A stretch of 64,000 bases of DNA from Candidatus Zixiibacteriota bacterium (GTDB taxonomy: Bacteria; Zixibacteria; MSB-5A5; GN15; JAAZOE01), in assembly GCA_030668485.1 (NCBI GenBank), contig DAOUTW010000001.1, positions 1 through 64,000 on the forward strand. The letters run 5' to 3'. The position numbers and the translations under genes were made by a program. Position 1 is the first letter of the stretch, and each line of letters begins with the position of its first letter. The notes beneath the pieces are model-generated. The model was not told the DNA's origin, did not search any database, and worked only from the letters and a program-made list of their open reading frames with translations. This document shows, piece after piece, positions 2,257-10,408 of this stretch.

Positions 2257-2323
2257 GGTATGGATTCTCATAAATCCTATTAACAGTCTTGTTGATAACA
2301 ACTTATGCCTGGTTAATCATTTG

Positions 2324-2339
2324 TGGCATGGTTAATGCT
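2324..2339 (+). promoter_or_regulatory. Sigma-54 (-24/-12) promoter of the Hmc-like operon
   Basis: TGGCATGGTTAATGCT matches the consensus TGGCAYRNNNNTTGCW at every fixed position except one (A for T at the start of the -12 box), with correct spacing of GG (2325-2326) and GC (2337-2338). Predicted transcription start is about 2350, just before the GGAGG at 2352-2356 and the start codon at 2359. Confidence 0.75.
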
Positions 2340-2358
2340 ATTGTTGCGGTTGGAGGAT

Positions 2359-3120
2359 ATGTTGAAAGTAGCCATTCCGCTATATGGGGACGATATTGCA
2401 CCCTGCTTTGAGGCCGCCAGTAATTTTATCATTGCTACGGTTAATGACAGCAGTGAGGTATCGGTAACTATTGCTCAATGCCATGAGGCGGAGGGGGTAG
2501 GCAGAATCCGGTTTATCCGGGATAATGGCGTCGGAACCCTCATTTGCAACGGCATAAAGGACTTCTACCGTGGCATGTTGCAGGCGGATGGTGTCGTGGT
2601 GATCTCGAATCTTGGTTATCCCGCCCGCGAGGCATTGAATTTGTATATAAACGGTAAATTCGGCGATCGTCCGGGAAAAATAATTCCCTCCGACTATGCC
2701 TGCGGCATTCTTTTGGATGACTTGCTTTGCTGGACCAAAGACATTTTTGAAAACAGCGGTTACCAGGTCAAATGCGGAGGCGACGCGGGTCCCTTTCCGA
2801 TCGATTTGACAGCCGAAATCGCCTGCCCGGCTTGCCACAATCCGATCCGAGTAGCAATTTGTTGTGGTGCCCACATGTATCGGCCGGATAAGGAAATCCA
2901 GGAATTTTATCATGTTGCCGGATCGGATTATCACGCCCGGATTTATGTTCACCCCGAGAGCTCCGAGATGAGTACCTGCTGTCATGAATTCGGAATAGAA
3001 CTCCTCGATCCATATACCGACCCGATCACAAATCGGAAACTGTTCGCATCAGGTATTCCCTTATTGCAAAATGTCATCCGGGGACATGAAAAAGCCGCCG
3101 GATCAAAACAAAGAAAATGA
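2359..3120 (+). CDS. NifX-like (dinitrogenase cofactor family) protein with cysteine-rich C-terminal domain
   Basis: A 253-residue protein. Residues 1-~120 resemble the NifX/NifB C-terminal family that binds Fe-Mo-type clusters (starts MLKVAIPLYGDDIAPCF; a glycine-rich turn and a GVVVISNLG strand follow). The second half is different: it holds CPAC, ICC and TCC motifs plus further Cys and His residues, a likely metal or cluster site I cannot assign. An upstream GTG (2323) is excluded because it lies within the sigma-54 promoter. ATG 2359 is close behind its GGAGG, and TTG 2362 is an alternative. It is first in the operon feeding the Hmc-like complex, so a role in sensing or maturing its clusters is plausible but inferred. 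Confidence 0.65.
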   Translation: MLKVAIPLYGDDIAPCFEAASNFIIATVNDSSEVSVTIAQCHEAEGVGRIRFIRDNGVGTLICNGIKDFYRGMLQADGVVVISNLGYPAREALNLYINGKFGDRPGKIIPSDYACGILLDDLLCWTKDIFENSGYQVKCGGDAGPFPIDLTAEIACPACHNPIRVAICCGAHMYRPDKEIQEFYHVAGSDYHARIYVHPESSEMSTCCHEFGIELLDPYTDPITNRKLFASGIPLLQNVIRGHEKAAGSKQRK

Positions 3121-3157
3121 AATTACATTAGCGTTTTTGAAGATAGATGGAGATCAG

Positions 3158-4633
3158 ATGAAAACAGCCCAAATTACACCGGAGGAGCGAGAACGGGCCT
3201 TTGCGTCAGCAAAAAAACCGGAGGTAATTGATAAGCAAAAGCTGAAGGTTCGATATCATGTCGAAGATTACAATGTTGCCGATCGACCGCGCCAGTTTCT
3301 CGAAGCCTTTTCCGCTATTCTTAAACATTCCAATTACCGGATGGCGCTGGATCATTTCATCAGAATGAGCGCCAAGTGCTCTCGATGTGCCACGACCTGT
3401 CAGGTCTATCAGGCGACCGGTGATCCCAAGGACATCCCATGTTTCAGATCGGAATTATTGTTAAGTGTTTACCGCCGTCACTTTACCCTTGGCGGTATGC
3501 TCAAGGGAAGGCTGTTGGGCAATGGTTATCTGACGGATGAGAAGATCGAAGAGATGGCGGAATCATTCTGGAATTGTACCGCCTGCCGGCGATGTACCAT
3601 GGAATGTCCCTCAGGTATCGATCATGGCCTGGTCACTCACCTTGGCCGGTATATCCTGTCGGAATTGGGAATAGCTCCGCGGGCTCTGGTGGTTAGTACG
3701 CGGGAGCAGCTTGAAGGAGCAACCGGTAACACCTCAGCTATTCCGGTACCCGCCTTGATCGACACGCTTGAATTTCTCGAAGAAGATATCAAAGAAGAAC
3801 TGTCGGTCGAAGTCAAATTCCCCATGGATGTCGAAAACGCTGAATATGTTTTCTTTCCGGCAGTCAGCGACTTTTTGATGGAAGCCGAAACCCTGATGGG
3901 GATTGTGGCCGTCTTTACTGTCACCGGCGATTCGTGGACGACCGGTACCGGCTATTTTGACGGTATCAACTATGGCCTGTTTTACAGTGATCGCATGCTG
4001 GAGCGGGTAGTCAAAAAAGTTGATGCCGAAACCAGGCGTTTGAAGGGAAAAAAGATTTTGATTGGCGAGTGCGGCCATGCTTCTCGTTCAGCCAAATACT
4101 ATATCCCTGTCTACTGCGGAGGTGATAAGGCCTTACCGGTTATCAACATCATGGAATATACGCATAGGGTATGGAAAGAAGGTCGCCTGAAACTTGATCC
4201 CAATGCCATAATGGAACCGGTGGCCTATCATGATCCCTGTAACATCGCCCGCCAGAAATGGATTATCGAAAAGCCACGAGAATTACTAAAGGCCTTCTGC
4301 CCCAATTATGTGGAAATGACCCCCAATAGAGATCAGAATGTCTGTTGCGGTGGTGGCGGCGGGACTGTTTCCATCGATGAGGTCAGGGCATACCGTACAG
4401 GCGTCGGCGGCAAGCTCAAGGCCGATCAGATCCGGGCCAGCGGCTGCAAATATCTGGTGGCGCCATGTGCCAACTGCAAAAAGCAATTACGTGAACTGGT
4501 CGAGGATCAGGGCATTGATGTCGAGGTGGTTGGCCTGCACGATTTGATATATAAGGCGATTATCTGGGATGAGAAGTTCAAAGTCTCCTCTTCCCCGGCA
4601 GAAGAAATCCCGCAGAAACAGGAGGATAAATAG
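3158..4633 (+). CDS. HmcF/HdrD-like Fe-S oxidoreductase subunit
   Basis: A 491-residue cytoplasmic protein. The N-terminal third has two ferredoxin-type cysteine clusters: CSRCATTCQ with a later C, and CTACRRCTMECP, which suit two [4Fe-4S] centres. The C-terminal half has two CCG-type cysteine modules: a degenerate one near residue 300, and an intact HDPC...CCGGGGG...CANCKKQ set, as in heterodisulfide reductase HdrD, HmcF, TmcB and DsrK. Such subunits take electrons from, or pass them to, cytoplasmic thiol/disulfide carriers across a membrane complex. ATG 3158 is preceded by GGAG with 6-nt spacing; an upstream start at 3071 would overlap the previous gene. The next gene follows after 3 bp. 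The actual substrate is unknown. Confidence 0.85.
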   Translation: MKTAQITPEERERAFASAKKPEVIDKQKLKVRYHVEDYNVADRPRQFLEAFSAILKHSNYRMALDHFIRMSAKCSRCATTCQVYQATGDPKDIPCFRSELLLSVYRRHFTLGGMLKGRLLGNGYLTDEKIEEMAESFWNCTACRRCTMECPSGIDHGLVTHLGRYILSELGIAPRALVVSTREQLEGATGNTSAIPVPALIDTLEFLEEDIKEELSVEVKFPMDVENAEYVFFPAVSDFLMEAETLMGIVAVFTVTGDSWTTGTGYFDGINYGLFYSDRMLERVVKKVDAETRRLKGKKILIGECGHASRSAKYYIPVYCGGDKALPVINIMEYTHRVWKEGRLKLDPNAIMEPVAYHDPCNIARQKWIIEKPRELLKAFCPNYVEMTPNRDQNVCCGGGGGTVSIDEVRAYRTGVGGKLKADQIRASGCKYLVAPCANCKKQLRELVEDQGIDVEVVGLHDLIYKAIIWDEKFKVSSSPAEEIPQKQEDK

Positions 4634-4636
4634 ACT

Positions 4637-5341
4637 ATGGATGCTTTGCTCGACTTCGCTCGCGGACCCCTATTTCGATTTTCGTTCGCGATTCTGGTTT
4701 TGGGCTTATTGCGGATTCTTATCCTTGATATTTGGGGGATTATTGAAGCTCTCCGGAAAACGGATGATAAAAAGATACCATGGAAATTGGTCAGTATCCG
4801 CACCCTGGAATGGTTTGTACCTGTCAGGAAGGTTTTTAGCAACCGTCCGATTTATAGCAGCCTTTCGATTCTGTTTCATGTCGGCCTGCTGCTTGTTCCC
4901 ATTTTTCTATATGCGCATATCAGTCTATGGAAGGGTACCGTGGGCTTTGGCTGGCCGGCACTCCCGAAATTATGGGCTGATATTCTCACCCTTCTGGCAA
5001 TAGGGACCGCCCTGGCGCTGTTTACAGGGCGAATCATCAGTAAAACATCGAGTTTTCTCAGCCGCAAGCAGGATTATCTGTGGCCGTTGATACTCGTGAT
5101 TCCATTCCTGACCGGTTTCATTTGCGCCAATGCGGGTGTCTCTCCGGTATTGTACCGCATCTGTATGCTGACTCATATCCTCTCCGCAGAAATAATATTC
5201 GTACTCATTCCTTTCACCAAAATTGCCCACTGTATCATAATGCCACTGTCGCAACTGGTGGCGACAATAGCCTGGAAATTCCCGCCGGAAACGGATGAAG
5301 CCGTCTGTACCACCTTGAATAAGAAAGGAGCCCCGGTGTGA
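4637..5341 (+). CDS. HmcE/NarI-like membrane subunit
   Basis: A 234-residue hydrophobic protein with about five transmembrane helices (around residues 12-36, 74-94, 112-131, 148-168 and 178-207). Histidines at the second helix (LFHVG), the fourth-fifth helix (LTHIL) and the last helix (AHCI) are candidate b-heme ligands, as in HmcE, TmcC and the NarI gamma family. It would link the cytoplasmic Fe-S subunit to quinones or to the NrfD partner. Gene order matches hmc/tmc operons. It overlaps the next gene by 4 bp (GTGA), indicating translational coupling. Confidence 0.75.
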   Translation: MDALLDFARGPLFRFSFAILVLGLLRILILDIWGIIEALRKTDDKKIPWKLVSIRTLEWFVPVRKVFSNRPIYSSLSILFHVGLLLVPIFLYAHISLWKGTVGFGWPALPKLWADILTLLAIGTALALFTGRIISKTSSFLSRKQDYLWPLILVIPFLTGFICANAGVSPVLYRICMLTHILSAEIIFVLIPFTKIAHCIIMPLSQLVATIAWKFPPETDEAVCTTLNKKGAPV

Positions 5342-6093
5342 GCAAAGCGATTCTGACTGACATAACAAAATGTATCGGTTGTCTTGAGTGTGTGAAAGTC
5401 TGCAAGAATACCTATGGCCTCGAATATGACGTCCCTCGCACCTGGCAAAAGAACGACGGACTTTCGGCCCAAAACTGGACAGCGGTGCTGCAGAAGCCGG
5501 GAAAGAAGTATATTCGAAAGCAATGTCGCCATTGTCTCGAACCGGCCTGCGTTACCGTCTGTCCGGTTGGGGCCTTGCACAAAACTGCGGAAGGTGCCGT
5601 TATGTATGACAGCGATAAATGCCTGGGCTGTCGATATTGCATGATGGCCTGCCCCTACGGCATTCCTCGTTACGATTGGGACAAGCCGGTTCCCTACATA
5701 CGAAAATGCATCATGTGCTATCCGAAGATCAAGAACGGCGAACAGCCGGCCTGTACCGCGGCCTGTCCCACCGAAGCAACCATTTTTGGCGAACGCGATG
5801 CCTTGATAGCGGAAGCCCATAAACGGATCAAAGAAACCCCGGGGAAGTACATCGACAAAGTATGGGGCGAGCATGAGATCGGCGGAACCTCGGTTCTGTA
5901 CCTGAGCGATATTGATCTGGGCTTTTTATCATATCAACCGCATCTGGGCAATACGCCTTTGCCGAACAGAACCGAGCCGGCTATGAAAGCAGTCCCTATC
6001 GCCTTCGCCGGGATGGGAGGGTTGATGTACGGCCTTAATTGGATCATTCGTCGCCGTATGGATAAGCAGGGAAAAAAGGAAAACGAGGAATAA
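5338..6093 (+). CDS. HmcB-like four-cluster ferredoxin subunit
   Basis: A 251-residue electron-transfer protein with four ferredoxin cysteine groups: CIGCLECVKVC, CRHCLEPACVTVC, CLGCRYCMMAC and a split CIMC...CTAAC group, the pattern of the NrfC/HmcB/DmsB family with four [4Fe-4S] clusters. A hydrophobic stretch near the C-terminus (AFAGMGGLMYGLNWII) followed by basic residues looks like a membrane anchor, as in HmcB. No signal peptide is visible, although this family often carries a Tat signal and faces the periplasm, so its side is uncertain. The GTG start is fixed by the 4-bp overlap with the preceding gene and an AAAGGAG upstream. The next gene starts 3 bp after the stop. Confidence 0.85.
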   Translation: MSKAILTDITKCIGCLECVKVCKNTYGLEYDVPRTWQKNDGLSAQNWTAVLQKPGKKYIRKQCRHCLEPACVTVCPVGALHKTAEGAVMYDSDKCLGCRYCMMACPYGIPRYDWDKPVPYIRKCIMCYPKIKNGEQPACTAACPTEATIFGERDALIAEAHKRIKETPGKYIDKVWGEHEIGGTSVLYLSDIDLGFLSYQPHLGNTPLPNRTEPAMKAVPIAFAGMGGLMYGLNWIIRRRMDKQGKKENEE

Positions 6094-6096
6094 TCG

Positions 6097-7965
6097 ATGA
6101 ATAGAGTTCAAAATACCAAACTGGTACTCTGGCTGATTGCCGGCTTTGCCGCCGCCGTCGGTATCACCCGTTTTGTGTTTGGTCTCGGGGTGACGACAAA
6201 TTTGACCGATGCCACACCCTGGGGGTTGTGGATCGGTTTTGATGTCATGGGCGGTGTGGCGCTCGCGTCGGGGGGATTTGTCCTGACCGCTATCGTCTAT
6301 ATAATGAAACGCGAAAAATATCACGGATTGGTCCGACCGGCCGTCCTGACCGCTTTTCTCGGATACATAGCGGTCGTCCTCGGATTGCTTTTTGACCTGG
6401 GTCTGCCCTGGAATATCTGGCATATGATGATTTATTGGAATCCGCATTCACCGCTGTTTGAGGTTGGATGGTGTGTGATGCTGTATACGACTGTTTTGTT
6501 GCTTGAATTCAGTCCGGTTCCGCTGGAGTCAACCAGTCGATACGCCCGGGTTCGCACCTTTCTTTTGAAATTCCGTTTCCCATTTGTGATGCTGGGCATC
6601 ATGCTCTCAACTCTCCATCAATCATCCCTGGGTTCCCTGTTCCTGATCATGCCGTTTAAGCTGCACCCGCTCTGGTATTCTAATATTCTACCGATTCATT
6701 TCTTCCTCTCAGCAATTGCCCTCGGATTAATGATGGTTTCGCTGGAAAGCCTCGTTTCCCACTGGCTCTACCGTCGTAAGGCAGCCACGCACCTTGTCGC
6801 CGGACTGGGTAAAGCAGCCGTCTGGGTTCTCTCGGTTTATCTCGTTGTGAAACTGCTCGATATTGCCATCTCCGGAAAGTTTGGCCTGATTTTCGATGGC
6901 AGTTGGGAGAGCTTCTTGTTTATCGCCGAGCTTTTGATTTCGATCATAATTCCCCTTCTCATTTTCGCTGTTCCCAAAAGCCGCAACAGCCTGGCCGGGC
7001 AGGGAATCGGATCGTTCATGGTCGTCTTTGGCTTGGTCTTCAATCGGATCAACGTTGGCGGCCTGACTATGCTGCGGGCCACTGGTGACGTGTATATCCC
7101 TTCATGGACGGAATTTGCCATCAGCGCCGGAGTTGTTTCGACCGCTGCCCTGGTATTCCTTTTTGCCGTGGAGAAATTTAATATTTGGGAGAAGCGGCCG
7201 ATTGATCCCCAGACTTTGCCCGATACCATGCCGAGTTTTGATCGTGCCTCTGAAGTGTGGCTGGGAGTCCCGGCGGTTGCCGCACGGACAAAATACTCGC
7301 TGGCCTTTATACTGAGTCTGTCAATCGGATTTGCGATAATGCCCGGAAGTAAAATTCAAAGCCAGGGTGTTGCAGAGGTTACGGCGCAGAAGGCCCGTGG
7401 GGGGGACGTCCTTTTCATCGATGGCAATCGCGACGGTTATGGGGTGATGTTCAAGCATACCGATCATACTAAGCGTTTGGAGAATGCCCAATCGTGCGTT
7501 AAATGCCACCATATGAATAAACCTCTGGATCAACAGAGCGGATGTTATGAATGCCATCGCGATATGTACTCTTCCAGCGATGTCTTTAATCATGACTGGC
7601 ATTCGGATTATTCGGGGTCCAATATCGCCTGCGGCCAATGTCATTCGGCGGGAGAAGAGCGCCGGGCGGAATCCGCGAAAAAATGCGATGCCTGCCATAC
7701 CGATCTGATCCCGGAAGGGACGCTTATAGAAGTCAAAAGCAATATGGCATCTTCATATACCGATGCCATGCACAGCATGTGCCTGGATTGCCATACTCAG
7801 AAAGCTCCGGAAGTGGCGGAGCGGATAAATCTGACGTTATGCACCACCTGCCATGAAGCGGCGCCTCCTGACTATCTCAAGAGTGAGGTCGGCGAGTCAC
7901 TTCGAGGCCCGTATTTTAACCATGTCGTTATTCCCGGTTTGCCGGAAAGGACGGAAGGGGATTGA
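6097..7965 (+). CDS. NrfD-family membrane subunit fused to a hexaheme cytochrome c domain
   Basis: A 622-residue fusion. Residues 1-~380 are an NrfD/HmcC/PsrC-type quinone-interacting integral membrane protein with about ten helices. An extra helix near residue 400-418 (SLAFILSLSIGFAIMP) leads to a C-terminal domain with six CXXCH heme sites: CVKCH, CYECH, CGQCH, CDACH, CLDCH and CTTCH. Extra histidines (HTDHT, NHDWH, MHSM, NHVV) could be distal ligands, as in class III cytochromes. In Hmc and Tmc complexes the multiheme cytochrome (HmcA, TmcA) is a separate gene; here it is covalently attached and would lie in the periplasm. This gives one polypeptide carrying electrons between periplasmic carriers and quinone. 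Last redox gene of the operon. Confidence 0.9.
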   Translation: MNRVQNTKLVLWLIAGFAAAVGITRFVFGLGVTTNLTDATPWGLWIGFDVMGGVALASGGFVLTAIVYIMKREKYHGLVRPAVLTAFLGYIAVVLGLLFDLGLPWNIWHMMIYWNPHSPLFEVGWCVMLYTTVLLLEFSPVPLESTSRYARVRTFLLKFRFPFVMLGIMLSTLHQSSLGSLFLIMPFKLHPLWYSNILPIHFFLSAIALGLMMVSLESLVSHWLYRRKAATHLVAGLGKAAVWVLSVYLVVKLLDIAISGKFGLIFDGSWESFLFIAELLISIIIPLLIFAVPKSRNSLAGQGIGSFMVVFGLVFNRINVGGLTMLRATGDVYIPSWTEFAISAGVVSTAALVFLFAVEKFNIWEKRPIDPQTLPDTMPSFDRASEVWLGVPAVAARTKYSLAFILSLSIGFAIMPGSKIQSQGVAEVTAQKARGGDVLFIDGNRDGYGVMFKHTDHTKRLENAQSCVKCHHMNKPLDQQSGCYECHRDMYSSSDVFNHDWHSDYSGSNIACGQCHSAGEERRAESAKKCDACHTDLIPEGTLIEVKSNMASSYTDAMHSMCLDCHTQKAPEVAERINLTLCTTCHEAAPPDYLKSEVGESLRGPYFNHVVIPGLPERTEGD

Positions 7966-7972
7966 TGAGTTT

Positions 7973-8395
7973 ATGAGTGCGAAGATTCTGATTATCGACG
8001 ATGAGCCGGATGTGGTCACTTATATGGTAGCGGTGCTCAAGTCGAATGGGTTTACCCCTTCATCGACAACGGACCCCAACCTCGGTCTGAAGATGGCGGC
8101 CGAGGTCCGGCCTGATTTGATATGCCTGGATATTATGATGCCAGAAAAATCCGGCATATCGATTTACACTAAACTAAAGAAGGACCGCTTACTCGGCAGT
8201 ATCCCGGTGCTGATTGTCAGTGGTGTCAGCCGGCAGGGCGAGTTTGATTTTCGCTCGTTTGTTTCCGACACGTCCATTCCTCCCCCGGAGGGTTATCTGG
8301 AGAAGCCAATTGTAATCGATCAGTATCTGCAGCTTATCCGTGATTTGACTTCTACGAATCTGTCGCTCAAGCGAGGAAAGGCGACTGATGCCTGA
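7973..8395 (+). CDS. Single-domain response regulator (receiver only)
   Basis: A 140-residue CheY-like receiver without an output domain. Acidic pair IDDE, phospho-acceptor Asp in ICLDIMMP, Ser in IVSG and Lys in LEKP are all present, so it should be phosphorylatable. ATG 7973 is chosen because the protein then begins at the first receiver strand (AKILIIDDEPD); it lies 8 bp after the NrfD-cytochrome stop. It overlaps the histidine kinase gene by 8 bp, pointing to a dedicated pair co-transcribed with the redox operon. Output is presumably by protein-protein contact. Confidence 0.85.
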   Translation: MSAKILIIDDEPDVVTYMVAVLKSNGFTPSSTTDPNLGLKMAAEVRPDLICLDIMMPEKSGISIYTKLKKDRLLGSIPVLIVSGVSRQGEFDFRSFVSDTSIPPPEGYLEKPIVIDQYLQLIRDLTSTNLSLKRGKATDA

Positions 8396-9866
8396 TATGA
8401 GCAAAAAAAACCCAACATCACGGGAAAGCTGGATTCGCAACCGAATGTTCCATAAAGTGCCGTTTAATGTTGCCGTCATTGATCGCGATTATAATATCGT
8501 CGATGCCAACGAAAGATTCGCTGAACACTTTGGCGAATGGCGGGGAAAGAAATGTTATGCGGCTTACAAAAAATTGAAGGAGCCCTGCGCTCAATGCAAT
8601 TCTCTTAAAGTGTTCGAAGACGGCAAGACCCGAGTGATTGACGAAGTGGGAATCGATCTGCATGGCCGACAGACGCATTATGTTGTCCATATCGCTCCCC
8701 TGCGTCGGGCGCCCGATGATCCCATCGAATACGTGTTGGAAATGTCATCCGAAGTCACGGAAACGAAGCGATGGCAGCAGGAATACCAGATCTTGTTTGA
8801 TCGGGTGCCGTGTTATATCACCGTTATCGATGAAAACTATCGCATCGTAAGGGCGAATGAGAGTTTCCGGGAAAACTTCGGCGACGTAATAGGGCAGAAT
8901 TGTTACAAAGTATACAAACGCAGAAACACCAAATGTCCCCATTGCCCGGCCGCAAGGACATTTAAAAATGGTGGGGTTTATAACTCGACCCAGCACGGTA
9001 TCGACAAAAAGGGCCAGGATATAACTTATCGCGTAACGACTTCTCCGTTGACCCGCGGCGGTGAGAAGGTAGCTCATGTGATCGAAATCTCGACCGACCT
9101 GACCGACATTAAGAAACTGGAGCAGGATGTTATCGAGGCCGAACGGTTGGGAGCCGTTGGTCAAACCGTGGCCGGATTGGCGCACAGTATAAAAAATATT
9201 CTAATGGGTCTGGAGGGCGGAAAATATATTGTTAGCGTCGGCTTGCAGAAGGATGATAAAGAAATGATAAACCAGGGATGGGAGATGTTGGAGAGAAACT
9301 TCGATAAGACAACCACCCTCGTTAAAGATTTTCTGAGCTTTTCCAAAGGACGTCTTCCTGAACTGCAAATGGTCAATCCCAATGATCTGGCCCGCGAAAT
9401 TGTCGATCTATATCGAGATACCTGCGCTCAATCTGGCATTAAACTCACGGCTGACCTGGTCCCAACAATCAAAAAAGCGCCCCTTGACCCGGATGGTATT
9501 CACACCTGCCTGACGAACCTGGTGTCGAATGCGATCGATGCCTGCCAGATGGGCGAGCAAAAGGGAACCGAGGTGATGATCAGGGTCAGAGAAGTGCGAG
9601 GGAAGCTGGTTTTTGAAGTTGCCGATAATGGCAGCGGTATCGACTATGAAATAAAGCAAAAGATTTTTACGACTTTCTTCACCACCAAAGGTGGCATGGG
9701 AACCGGGCTTGGTCTTCTGACTACCCGCAAAATCGTTCAGGAACACGGTGGAAAGATAATTGTGGAATCCAAGAAAGGCCAGGGTGCTCGATTTCGGATG
9801 GAATTTCCTCGCAGCCGACTCCTGACCCTTTTCGAAAATGCGGGCAACCATGAGAACAAAAATTAA
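8388..9866 (+). CDS. PAS-PAS sensor histidine kinase, soluble
   Basis: A 492-residue kinase with no membrane segment. Two PAS domains (about residues 20-125 and 140-240) each carry the same cysteine pattern: one Cys after the core (KCYAAY; NCYKVY) and a later C-x2-C (PCAQC; KCPHC), suggesting paired metal, heme or redox sites. The H-box is LAHSIKN (His phosphorylation site), followed by HATPase motifs LTNLVSNAIDAC, VADNGSG and GTGLGLLT. ATG 8388 has GAGGAAAGG upstream. Flanked by two stand-alone receivers, it is the natural phosphodonor for both. Location after the Hmc-like complex suggests it reads redox state. Confidence 0.88.
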   Translation: MPDMSKKNPTSRESWIRNRMFHKVPFNVAVIDRDYNIVDANERFAEHFGEWRGKKCYAAYKKLKEPCAQCNSLKVFEDGKTRVIDEVGIDLHGRQTHYVVHIAPLRRAPDDPIEYVLEMSSEVTETKRWQQEYQILFDRVPCYITVIDENYRIVRANESFRENFGDVIGQNCYKVYKRRNTKCPHCPAARTFKNGGVYNSTQHGIDKKGQDITYRVTTSPLTRGGEKVAHVIEISTDLTDIKKLEQDVIEAERLGAVGQTVAGLAHSIKNILMGLEGGKYIVSVGLQKDDKEMINQGWEMLERNFDKTTTLVKDFLSFSKGRLPELQMVNPNDLAREIVDLYRDTCAQSGIKLTADLVPTIKKAPLDPDGIHTCLTNLVSNAIDACQMGEQKGTEVMIRVREVRGKLVFEVADNGSGIDYEIKQKIFTTFFTTKGGMGTGLGLLTTRKIVQEHGGKIIVESKKGQGARFRMEFPRSRLLTLFENAGNHENKN

Positions 9867-9886: not shown

Positions 9887-10408
9887 ATGGCACAGCCTGT
9901 CGGCAAGACAGTTCTGGTAGTGGACGATGAAGCGGATGTCAGGAATTATCTGAAGGCTGCATTGGTGGAAGCCGGCTTTGACGTCGTTACTGCAGATAAT
10001 GGATTTGAGGCGCTGGACGCTGTTGACAAGCAAATCCCCGATCTCATATCGCTCGATCTCGTAATGCCGCGAAAATCCGGAGTGAAGTTTTATCGGGAGC
10101 TTGCCAAAAACAGCGCCTGGTCAAAAATTCCAATCATCATCGTCACCGGTCACGCCCGTGATGATTTGGGGAAAGCCGATCTCAAAGAATTGACTATGTC
10201 GGGTCCCGGAATTTATCTCGAAAAACCGGTCAAGCCGAATAATTACATCGCGGCCATAAAGAAGACCCTGGGGATGGATACGACTCAAGAAGAAAAGACC
10301 GCTGCCGAAAAAATTGAACTGCAGAATGAATTGAAAAATTTGATAGATGATGCCGATCCGGATATGCTGCGCAGGCTTAAAAAGGATATCCAAAACAAGA
10401 GTGATTAG
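9887..10408 (+). CDS. Receiver protein with short C-terminal extension
   Basis: A 173-residue response regulator. Receiver residues 1-~125 contain VVDDE, the acceptor Asp in ISLDLVMP, Thr in IVTGH and Lys in YLEKPV. Then follows a ~45-residue charged, probably helical tail (EEKTAAEKIELQNELKNL) of unknown function. A clear AAAGGAG precedes ATG 9887, 20 bp after the kinase stop. It is the last gene of the redox and signalling run; a short dyad without a U-tract (10448-10466) follows. Confidence 0.85.
   Translation: MAQPVGKTVLVVDDEADVRNYLKAALVEAGFDVVTADNGFEALDAVDKQIPDLISLDLVMPRKSGVKFYRELAKNSAWSKIPIIIVTGHARDDLGKADLKELTMSGPGIYLEKPVKPNNYIAAIKKTLGMDTTQEEKTAAEKIELQNELKNLIDDADPDMLRRLKKDIQNKSD

Follow-up and report, generated by a model that had tools for sequence, protein, structure and literature searches.

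Several described complexes share parts with the operon analyzed here. Hmc (HmcABCDEF) of Desulfovibrio comprises an NrfD protein (HmcC), a ferredoxin (HmcB), a NarI-like cytochrome b (HmcE), a CCG protein (HmcF) and a multiheme cytochrome of the class III type, HmcA, which is encoded separately and carries 16 hemes. DsrMKJOP combines a diheme cytochrome b (M) and a CCG protein (K) with a three-heme cytochrome c (J), a ferredoxin (O) and an NrfD protein (P), and QrcABCD brings together a hexaheme cytochrome (QrcA), a ferredoxin, an NrfD protein (QrcD) and a molybdopterin-like subunit (QrcB). Tmc contains a CCG protein (TmcB), a cytochrome b (TmcC) and a class III-type cytochrome and is not known to have an NrfD protein or an HmcB-type ferredoxin. 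The classical Hmc and Tmc complexes fill a niche in Desulfovibrio similar to the one proposed below. Outside Desulfobacterota, most of what is known of sulfite and sulfate reduction comes from metagenomes. A survey covering the evolution of Dsr on a large scale (PMC10504309) lists Hmc, Tmc and Ohc as relatives that its searches have to distinguish. Our searches of open-access papers brought up no description of an NrfD-hexaheme cytochrome fusion.

The window analyzed is a stretch of 64,000 nucleotides from a bacterium placed in Zixiibacteriota by its relatives, and the features described below all lie on its forward strand. The core of the operon consists of four genes, namely those of a DsrK/HmcF-like cytoplasmic CCG Fe-S protein (3071-4633; DsrK model NF045796, PF02754), a TmcC/HmcE-like membrane cytochrome b of 234 aa (4637-5341; NF045723), an HmcB/HybA-like ferredoxin of 251 aa (5338-6093; NF045715, matched from model position 36) and, only 3 bases after the ferredoxin stop, an NrfD-hexaheme cytochrome c fusion of 622 aa (6097-7965; HmcC-like, NF045714). 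The CCG protein bears the conserved cluster motif (C390, C425C426G and C466xxC469), and the four conserved His residues of the cytochrome b (81, 94, 180 and 198) fit two b hemes. The core order, with the fusion last, was fixed in almost every locus for which the flanks were examined. In the relatives, the core is often preceded by a sigma-54 activator and a FeMo-Co-domain protein and followed by a response regulator, a kinase and a second response regulator. The counterparts in the window are a PAS/sigma-54 activator (777-2147; PF00158), a Nitro_FeMo-Co-domain protein (2323-3120; PF02579), a response regulator receiver protein directly 3' of the fusion (7973-8395; PF00072), a PAS histidine kinase (8388-9866; PF02518 and PF08448) and another response regulator receiver protein (9887-10408; PF00072). 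The Nitro_FeMo-Co-domain protein, which is kept in the operon of many relatives, also gave a weak zinc-ribbon match. In a second subfamily of the fusion (658-682 aa), the four-gene core mostly stands alone, and one locus of this subfamily (L113) also has the regulators.

We compared each subunit with the NCBIfam models of the known complexes. The scores stayed below the cut-offs for Hmc (HmcC, 307.7 against 550 bits; HmcB, 241.1 against 420; HmcE, 105.4 against 275; HmcF, 207.4 against 750; HmcA, 30.2 against 400), for Tmc (TmcB, 212.9 against 735; TmcC, 118.9 against 240), for Dsr (DsrK, 290.1 against 400; DsrO, 101.1 against 200; no match to DsrP or DsrM) and for Qrc (QrcD, 117.2 against 570, with no molybdopterin-like, QrcB-type subunit in the operon). 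Thus, the complex is related to these systems and is a member of none of them as defined. With Hmc it shares the NrfD, ferredoxin, NarI-like b and CCG proteins as well as a multiheme class III-type cytochrome, and of all models HmcC scored highest with the fusion and HmcB with the ferredoxin. In contrast to Hmc with its separate HmcA, six hemes are here fused to NrfD, no HmcD-like gene lies between those of the subunits, and the ferredoxin lacks a Tat signal. Counterparts of all five DsrMKJOP proteins are recognizable, DsrK is the best model for the CCG protein, and both complexes co-occur with dsrAB and dsrC; nevertheless, the equivalents of J and P are joined in a single polypeptide, which has six hemes where J has three, the operon does not adjoin dsrAB, and separate DsrM, DsrO and DsrP sequences scored above their cut-offs in the same genome. 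The likeness to Qrc lies in the combination of a hexaheme cytochrome, a ferredoxin and NrfD and in the retained Tyr/Ser and acidic residues of the quinone site, whereas QrcA and QrcD are separate proteins and the b-heme and CCG subunits are additional here. Tmc contributes homologues of TmcB and TmcC and a cytochrome of the same class. The suggestion of the earlier note that the fusion could define a new type of complex thus holds insofar as the locus lies outside the curated Hmc, Tmc, Dsr and Qrc models, but we regard it rather as a compact variant of Hmc/DsrMKJOP. Altogether, with a probability of roughly 0.68, the four proteins make up a complex for electron transfer across the membrane that is compact, related to Hmc and DsrMKJOP, and used mainly by sulfite/sulfate reducers outside the classical Desulfobacterota models.

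The fusion is encoded by an ORF with an ATG start and 622 codons in a single frame without interruption. The NrfD domain, with ten transmembrane helices, as fits a family of 8-10 helices in two bundles, occupies residues 1-368 (6097-7200): PF03916 matched residues 36-318 (53.7 bits; cut-off, 25.8), and the HmcC model aligned to residues 10-368, followed by the HybB model with 270.6 bits and, more weakly, QrcD. The six-heme c-type domain (class III/c7-like; PF02085/PF14522) spans residues 435-600 (7399-7896), and PF02085 matched residues 496-586 (46.1 bits; cut-off, 22.9). Six CXXCH motifs start at residues 467, 483, 512, 530, 562 and 582, namely CVKCH, with H472 right after it (7495-7509), CYECH (7543-7557), CGQCH (7630-7644), CDACH (7684-7698), CLDCH (7780-7794) and CTTCH (7840-7854). 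When residues 420-622 were shuffled 20,000 times, at most two CXXCH motifs appeared per shuffle, and all six motifs were kept in 47 of the 47 aligned relatives. The claim of the earlier note that an NrfD protein is covalently joined to a six-heme cytochrome was borne out by these data. Besides the histidines of these motifs, the conserved His residues of the heme domain are 454, 472, 499, 502 and 559, invariant in the 47 relatives, and 457, found in at least 90% of them. Their number equals that of the hemes, so that each heme would have one of the six as a likely second ligand. A sequence search of the PDB with the fusion retrieved weak cytochrome matches only. We also considered whether translation could begin internally and yield the cytochrome by itself; there are in-frame candidates, such as the ATG of residue 378, but that position has no majority residue among the relatives, and the idea was rejected.

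AlphaFold, run with the 47 relatives (mean pLDDT of 76), predicted the ten NrfD helices and an eleventh helix at residues 392-414 (7270-7338) with a pLDDT of 86-96. The hydropathy peak of the joining helix (residues 402-420) and a conserved junction (W388-L-G-x-P...Y-S-L-x-F) coincide with this region, in agreement with the earlier proposal that an extra transmembrane helix links NrfD to the hemes. In Foldseek, the NrfD part matched ActC/ActF of alternative complex III. Across the fusion family, Lys and Arg amount to 23.0 per protein in the inside loops versus 2.7 in the outside loops, which fits a topology with the N-terminus and the end of TM10 inside and helix 11 crossing to the periplasm. 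With both of these ends inside, helix 11 would bring the hemes to the periplasm, and the attachment of c-type hemes must occur in that compartment. The fusion would then hold the cytochrome at the membrane in a 1:1 ratio and stand in for cytochromes that, like DsrJ or QrcA, are separate and anchored.

The chain could alternatively be a polyprotein that is made as one piece and cut by signal peptidase at the end of helix 11, so that the mature NrfD and cytochrome are not fused. There is precedent in FbcH of Bradyrhizobium, a cytochrome b/c1 precursor cleaved into separate subunits. Helix 11 resembles an internal signal sequence, with basic residues (R397 and K399) ahead of about 16 hydrophobic ones, and small residues stand at the candidate -3 and -1 positions (G411 in 40 and A413 in 37 of the 47 relatives). 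Nevertheless, five of the 47 have M or L at position 413, so that a cleavage site would not be universal, the helix is predicted at high confidence, and the conserved residues behind it (S422, G424 and A433-R-G-G) fit a structural junction. We consider cleavage unlikely on balance. The fixed stoichiometry claimed by the earlier note accordingly stands at translation, whereas after export G411 and A413 would allow the cut. For structural work, the fusion is of use as an NrfD-cytochrome that occurs naturally as a single chain.

Calisto and Pereira (PMC8076601) listed 25 residues of the quinone site and proton path in HybB of E. coli. The NrfD domain in the window keeps 20 of these 25, including D49, D100, S118, E122, Y68, Y90, Y130, E137, E144, H174, S176, S177, E278 and R317, and has K for R265 and D for E268. 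At the level of sequence, the parts of the complex preferred here are an NrfD menaquinone module with a predicted periplasmic hexaheme cytochrome on helix 11, a four-cluster ferredoxin, a diheme b protein and a DsrK-type CCG protein. We propose that periplasmic low-potential cytochromes would deliver electrons to the hexaheme domain, from which the ferredoxin would hand them on to menaquinone at a site of NrfD on the periplasmic side, the reduction drawing protons from the cytoplasm as in Qrc. Menaquinol would in turn supply the CCG protein and the hemes of the cytochrome b with electrons, and the CCG protein may reduce a cytoplasmic disulfide or a DsrC-type trisulfide, DsrC being suggested by co-occurrence. 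For the first half of this route, from cytochrome to menaquinone, Qrc is the experimental model. Electrons might also run in the reverse direction; we infer the direction, the partner and the side of the ferredoxin alike. The earlier note had envisaged a direct electron path between the hemes and the quinone site, which we find unsupported because a four-cluster ferredoxin is encoded next door, and in the known relatives the ferredoxin sits between cytochrome and quinone. The complex would be a simple candidate electron path for energy coupling in little-known sulfite/sulfate reducers.

The distribution of dsr genes ties the fusion to sulfur metabolism. Among the genomes of the window's phylum, dsrB was found in 33 of the 36 with the main fused type versus 17 of the 94 others (Fisher p=5e-15, counted by genome and by genus and not on a tree), and DsrC in 35 of the 36. 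When any fused type is considered, 27 of 30 genera include a fused genome with dsrB. Outside the phylum, 48 genomes were reached via named loci, of which 42 possess dsrB above the cut-off and 46 DsrC. From this co-occurrence, most carriers use the complex as part of their dissimilatory sulfur metabolism, and it provides a conserved, easily recognised marker accompanying dsrAB/dsrC in about ten phyla. The genome of the window encodes dsrAB, dsrC, DsrM, DsrO and DsrP on a contig different from that of the operon (C57; L140), with dsrA a fragment that is cut at the stretch end and scores below the full-length cut-off, and the organism likely has a dissimilatory sulfite/sulfate metabolism. We also considered the complex as a replacement of DsrMKJOP and rejected this, as the genome encodes its own DsrMKJOP and the complex would work beside it, not instead of it. 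Since DsrMKJOP is present and the dsr genes are not adjacent to the fusion operon, a role of the complex toward DsrC would be partly redundant.

The complex might instead act more generally as a menaquinol:cytochrome c oxidoreductase, in electron transfer of the extracellular or syntrophic kind, its link to Dsr reflecting merely a shared anaerobic lifestyle. NrfD/FeS/multiheme modules have been proposed for such a role elsewhere (PMC7327174), and in a few genomes with the fusion no dsrB was detected, namely in G051, which is 95% complete, and in some non-Zixibacterial genomes. On the other hand, the association with dsrB and DsrC is strong and is absent from the NrfD-only relatives in the same phylum: the genomes with unfused NrfD relatives only had dsrB in 7 of 55, no positive link and indeed an opposite trend. 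The DsrK-type CCG and b-heme subunits moreover point to a cytoplasmic partner, and we judge the general role improbable. The same genome also has an unfused counterpart on another contig (C83; L119, 4205-7525 on the reverse strand), in which an HmcB/HmcC-type ferredoxin and NrfD likewise adjoin a multiheme cytochrome; unlike in the fusion operon, the cytochrome, with 13 hemes, is a separate gene, the ferredoxin has a Tat signal, and no CCG or b subunit was seen in the stretch examined. In related genomes such as G087, G038, G083, G046-G049, G147 and G164, we noticed multi-copy proteins of ~220-250 aa in which two DsrC-like domains stand in tandem; both align to the model only up to about position 101 and so lack the C-terminal arm.

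The ferredoxin has 16 conserved Cys residues corresponding to four [4Fe-4S] clusters, a conserved Tyr100 in CxGCRYC and a hydrophobic C-tail, as read from 75 sequences. HmcB and HybA are both made with a Tat signal. In the window, the start codon of the ferredoxin is a GTG that overlaps the preceding stop; the protein has in-frame stops just upstream and no N-terminal extension, and no Tat signal was found on it or on the ferredoxin of any fused-type locus examined (window 5338-6093 and relatives L032-L111). Neither this feature nor the link to dissimilatory sulfite reductase figures in the earlier note. By contrast, the unfused C83 ferredoxin (RRDFLKLAG) and DsrO (RRKFLRLTG) of the same genome retain signals of the RRxFLK type. 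No Tat-bearing partner gene was seen in the operon, and, with the signal likewise lacking, the periplasmic placement of the ferredoxin is uncertain. Gallego-Parrilla et al. (PMC10924467) described signal-less tail-anchored ferredoxins beside a Tat-signal [FeFe] hydrogenase and suggested hitchhiking through Tat. In fold and C-tail, the ferredoxin is of the HybA/HmcB kind, whose members are exported through Tat. The C-tail is homologous to that of HybA, and the conserved Trp/Arg stretch at its end (WIIRRR) speaks for a C-terminus inside and hence the domain outside. Tyr100 is equivalent to Y113 of QrcC, a quinone-site tyrosine (PMC13059093), though as evidence on the side of the ferredoxin it is weak because many members of the broader ferredoxin family have it. 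Taken together, the canonical charge bias of NrfD, the C-tail and the conserved Tyr favour the periplasmic side. When the ferredoxin and the fusion were folded as one read-through chain, the pLDDT was 76.

The ferredoxin could otherwise remain on the cytoplasmic side. The complex could then represent a distinct respiratory class from about ten poorly studied phyla, in which the quinone protein has its six attached hemes in the periplasm and NrfD itself carries electrons across the membrane for DsrC-dependent sulfur respiration. The missing signal would suit this arrangement, but the features above point to the opposite side; we regard a cytoplasmic ferredoxin as unlikely and the distinct class as very doubtful. 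Either way, the Tat-less ferredoxin is a testable puzzle on the assembly of such complexes.

The earlier note had proposed a search for the same fusion in other genomes. Among 133 genomes of the same phylum, the main type was full-length or near-full-length in 36, and all of the 30 same-phylum loci examined (including the window) have one frame and exactly six CXXCH motifs. A wider scan with one genome per species yielded 569 relatives; nearly all of the best 80 of these 569 are fused with six CXXCH motifs, while one (L095) matches on the NrfD side only, and the best 80 belong to Zixiibacteriota, Ignavibacteria/Bacteroidota, Kryptoniota, Calditrichota, LCP-89, Electryoneota, Acidobacteriota, Myxococcota and Omnitrophota MAGs. 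The fusion is carried by at least 75 named MAGs in about ten phyla. That a sequencing or assembly error merged two genes at 6097-7965, the caveat raised at the outset, can practically be dismissed, as the same single-frame, six-CXXCH architecture recurs across these loci and MAGs of differing sources.

We placed 58 NrfD domains in a tree (quick search, SH-aLRT support and no bootstraps). All fused NrfDs, including those of the second subfamily, grouped together in a single clade with an SH-aLRT of 99. As all fused forms make up one clade, a single origin of the fusion with subsequent spread is most likely. One second-subfamily fusion (L112, 15-1887) is split over two overlapping frames and adjoins an intact sister copy (L118); in the tree the split copy was nested inside the fused clade beside the intact copy, and the split is probably a frameshift in that fragmented MAG. 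In other loci (L121, L126, L147, L153-L155 and L158), a signal-less ferredoxin and an NrfD protein occur without a cytochrome and with regulators, as a further NrfD module unlinked to dsr, and several of these loci have a small membrane-anchored neighbour that appeared GcvH-like by eye.
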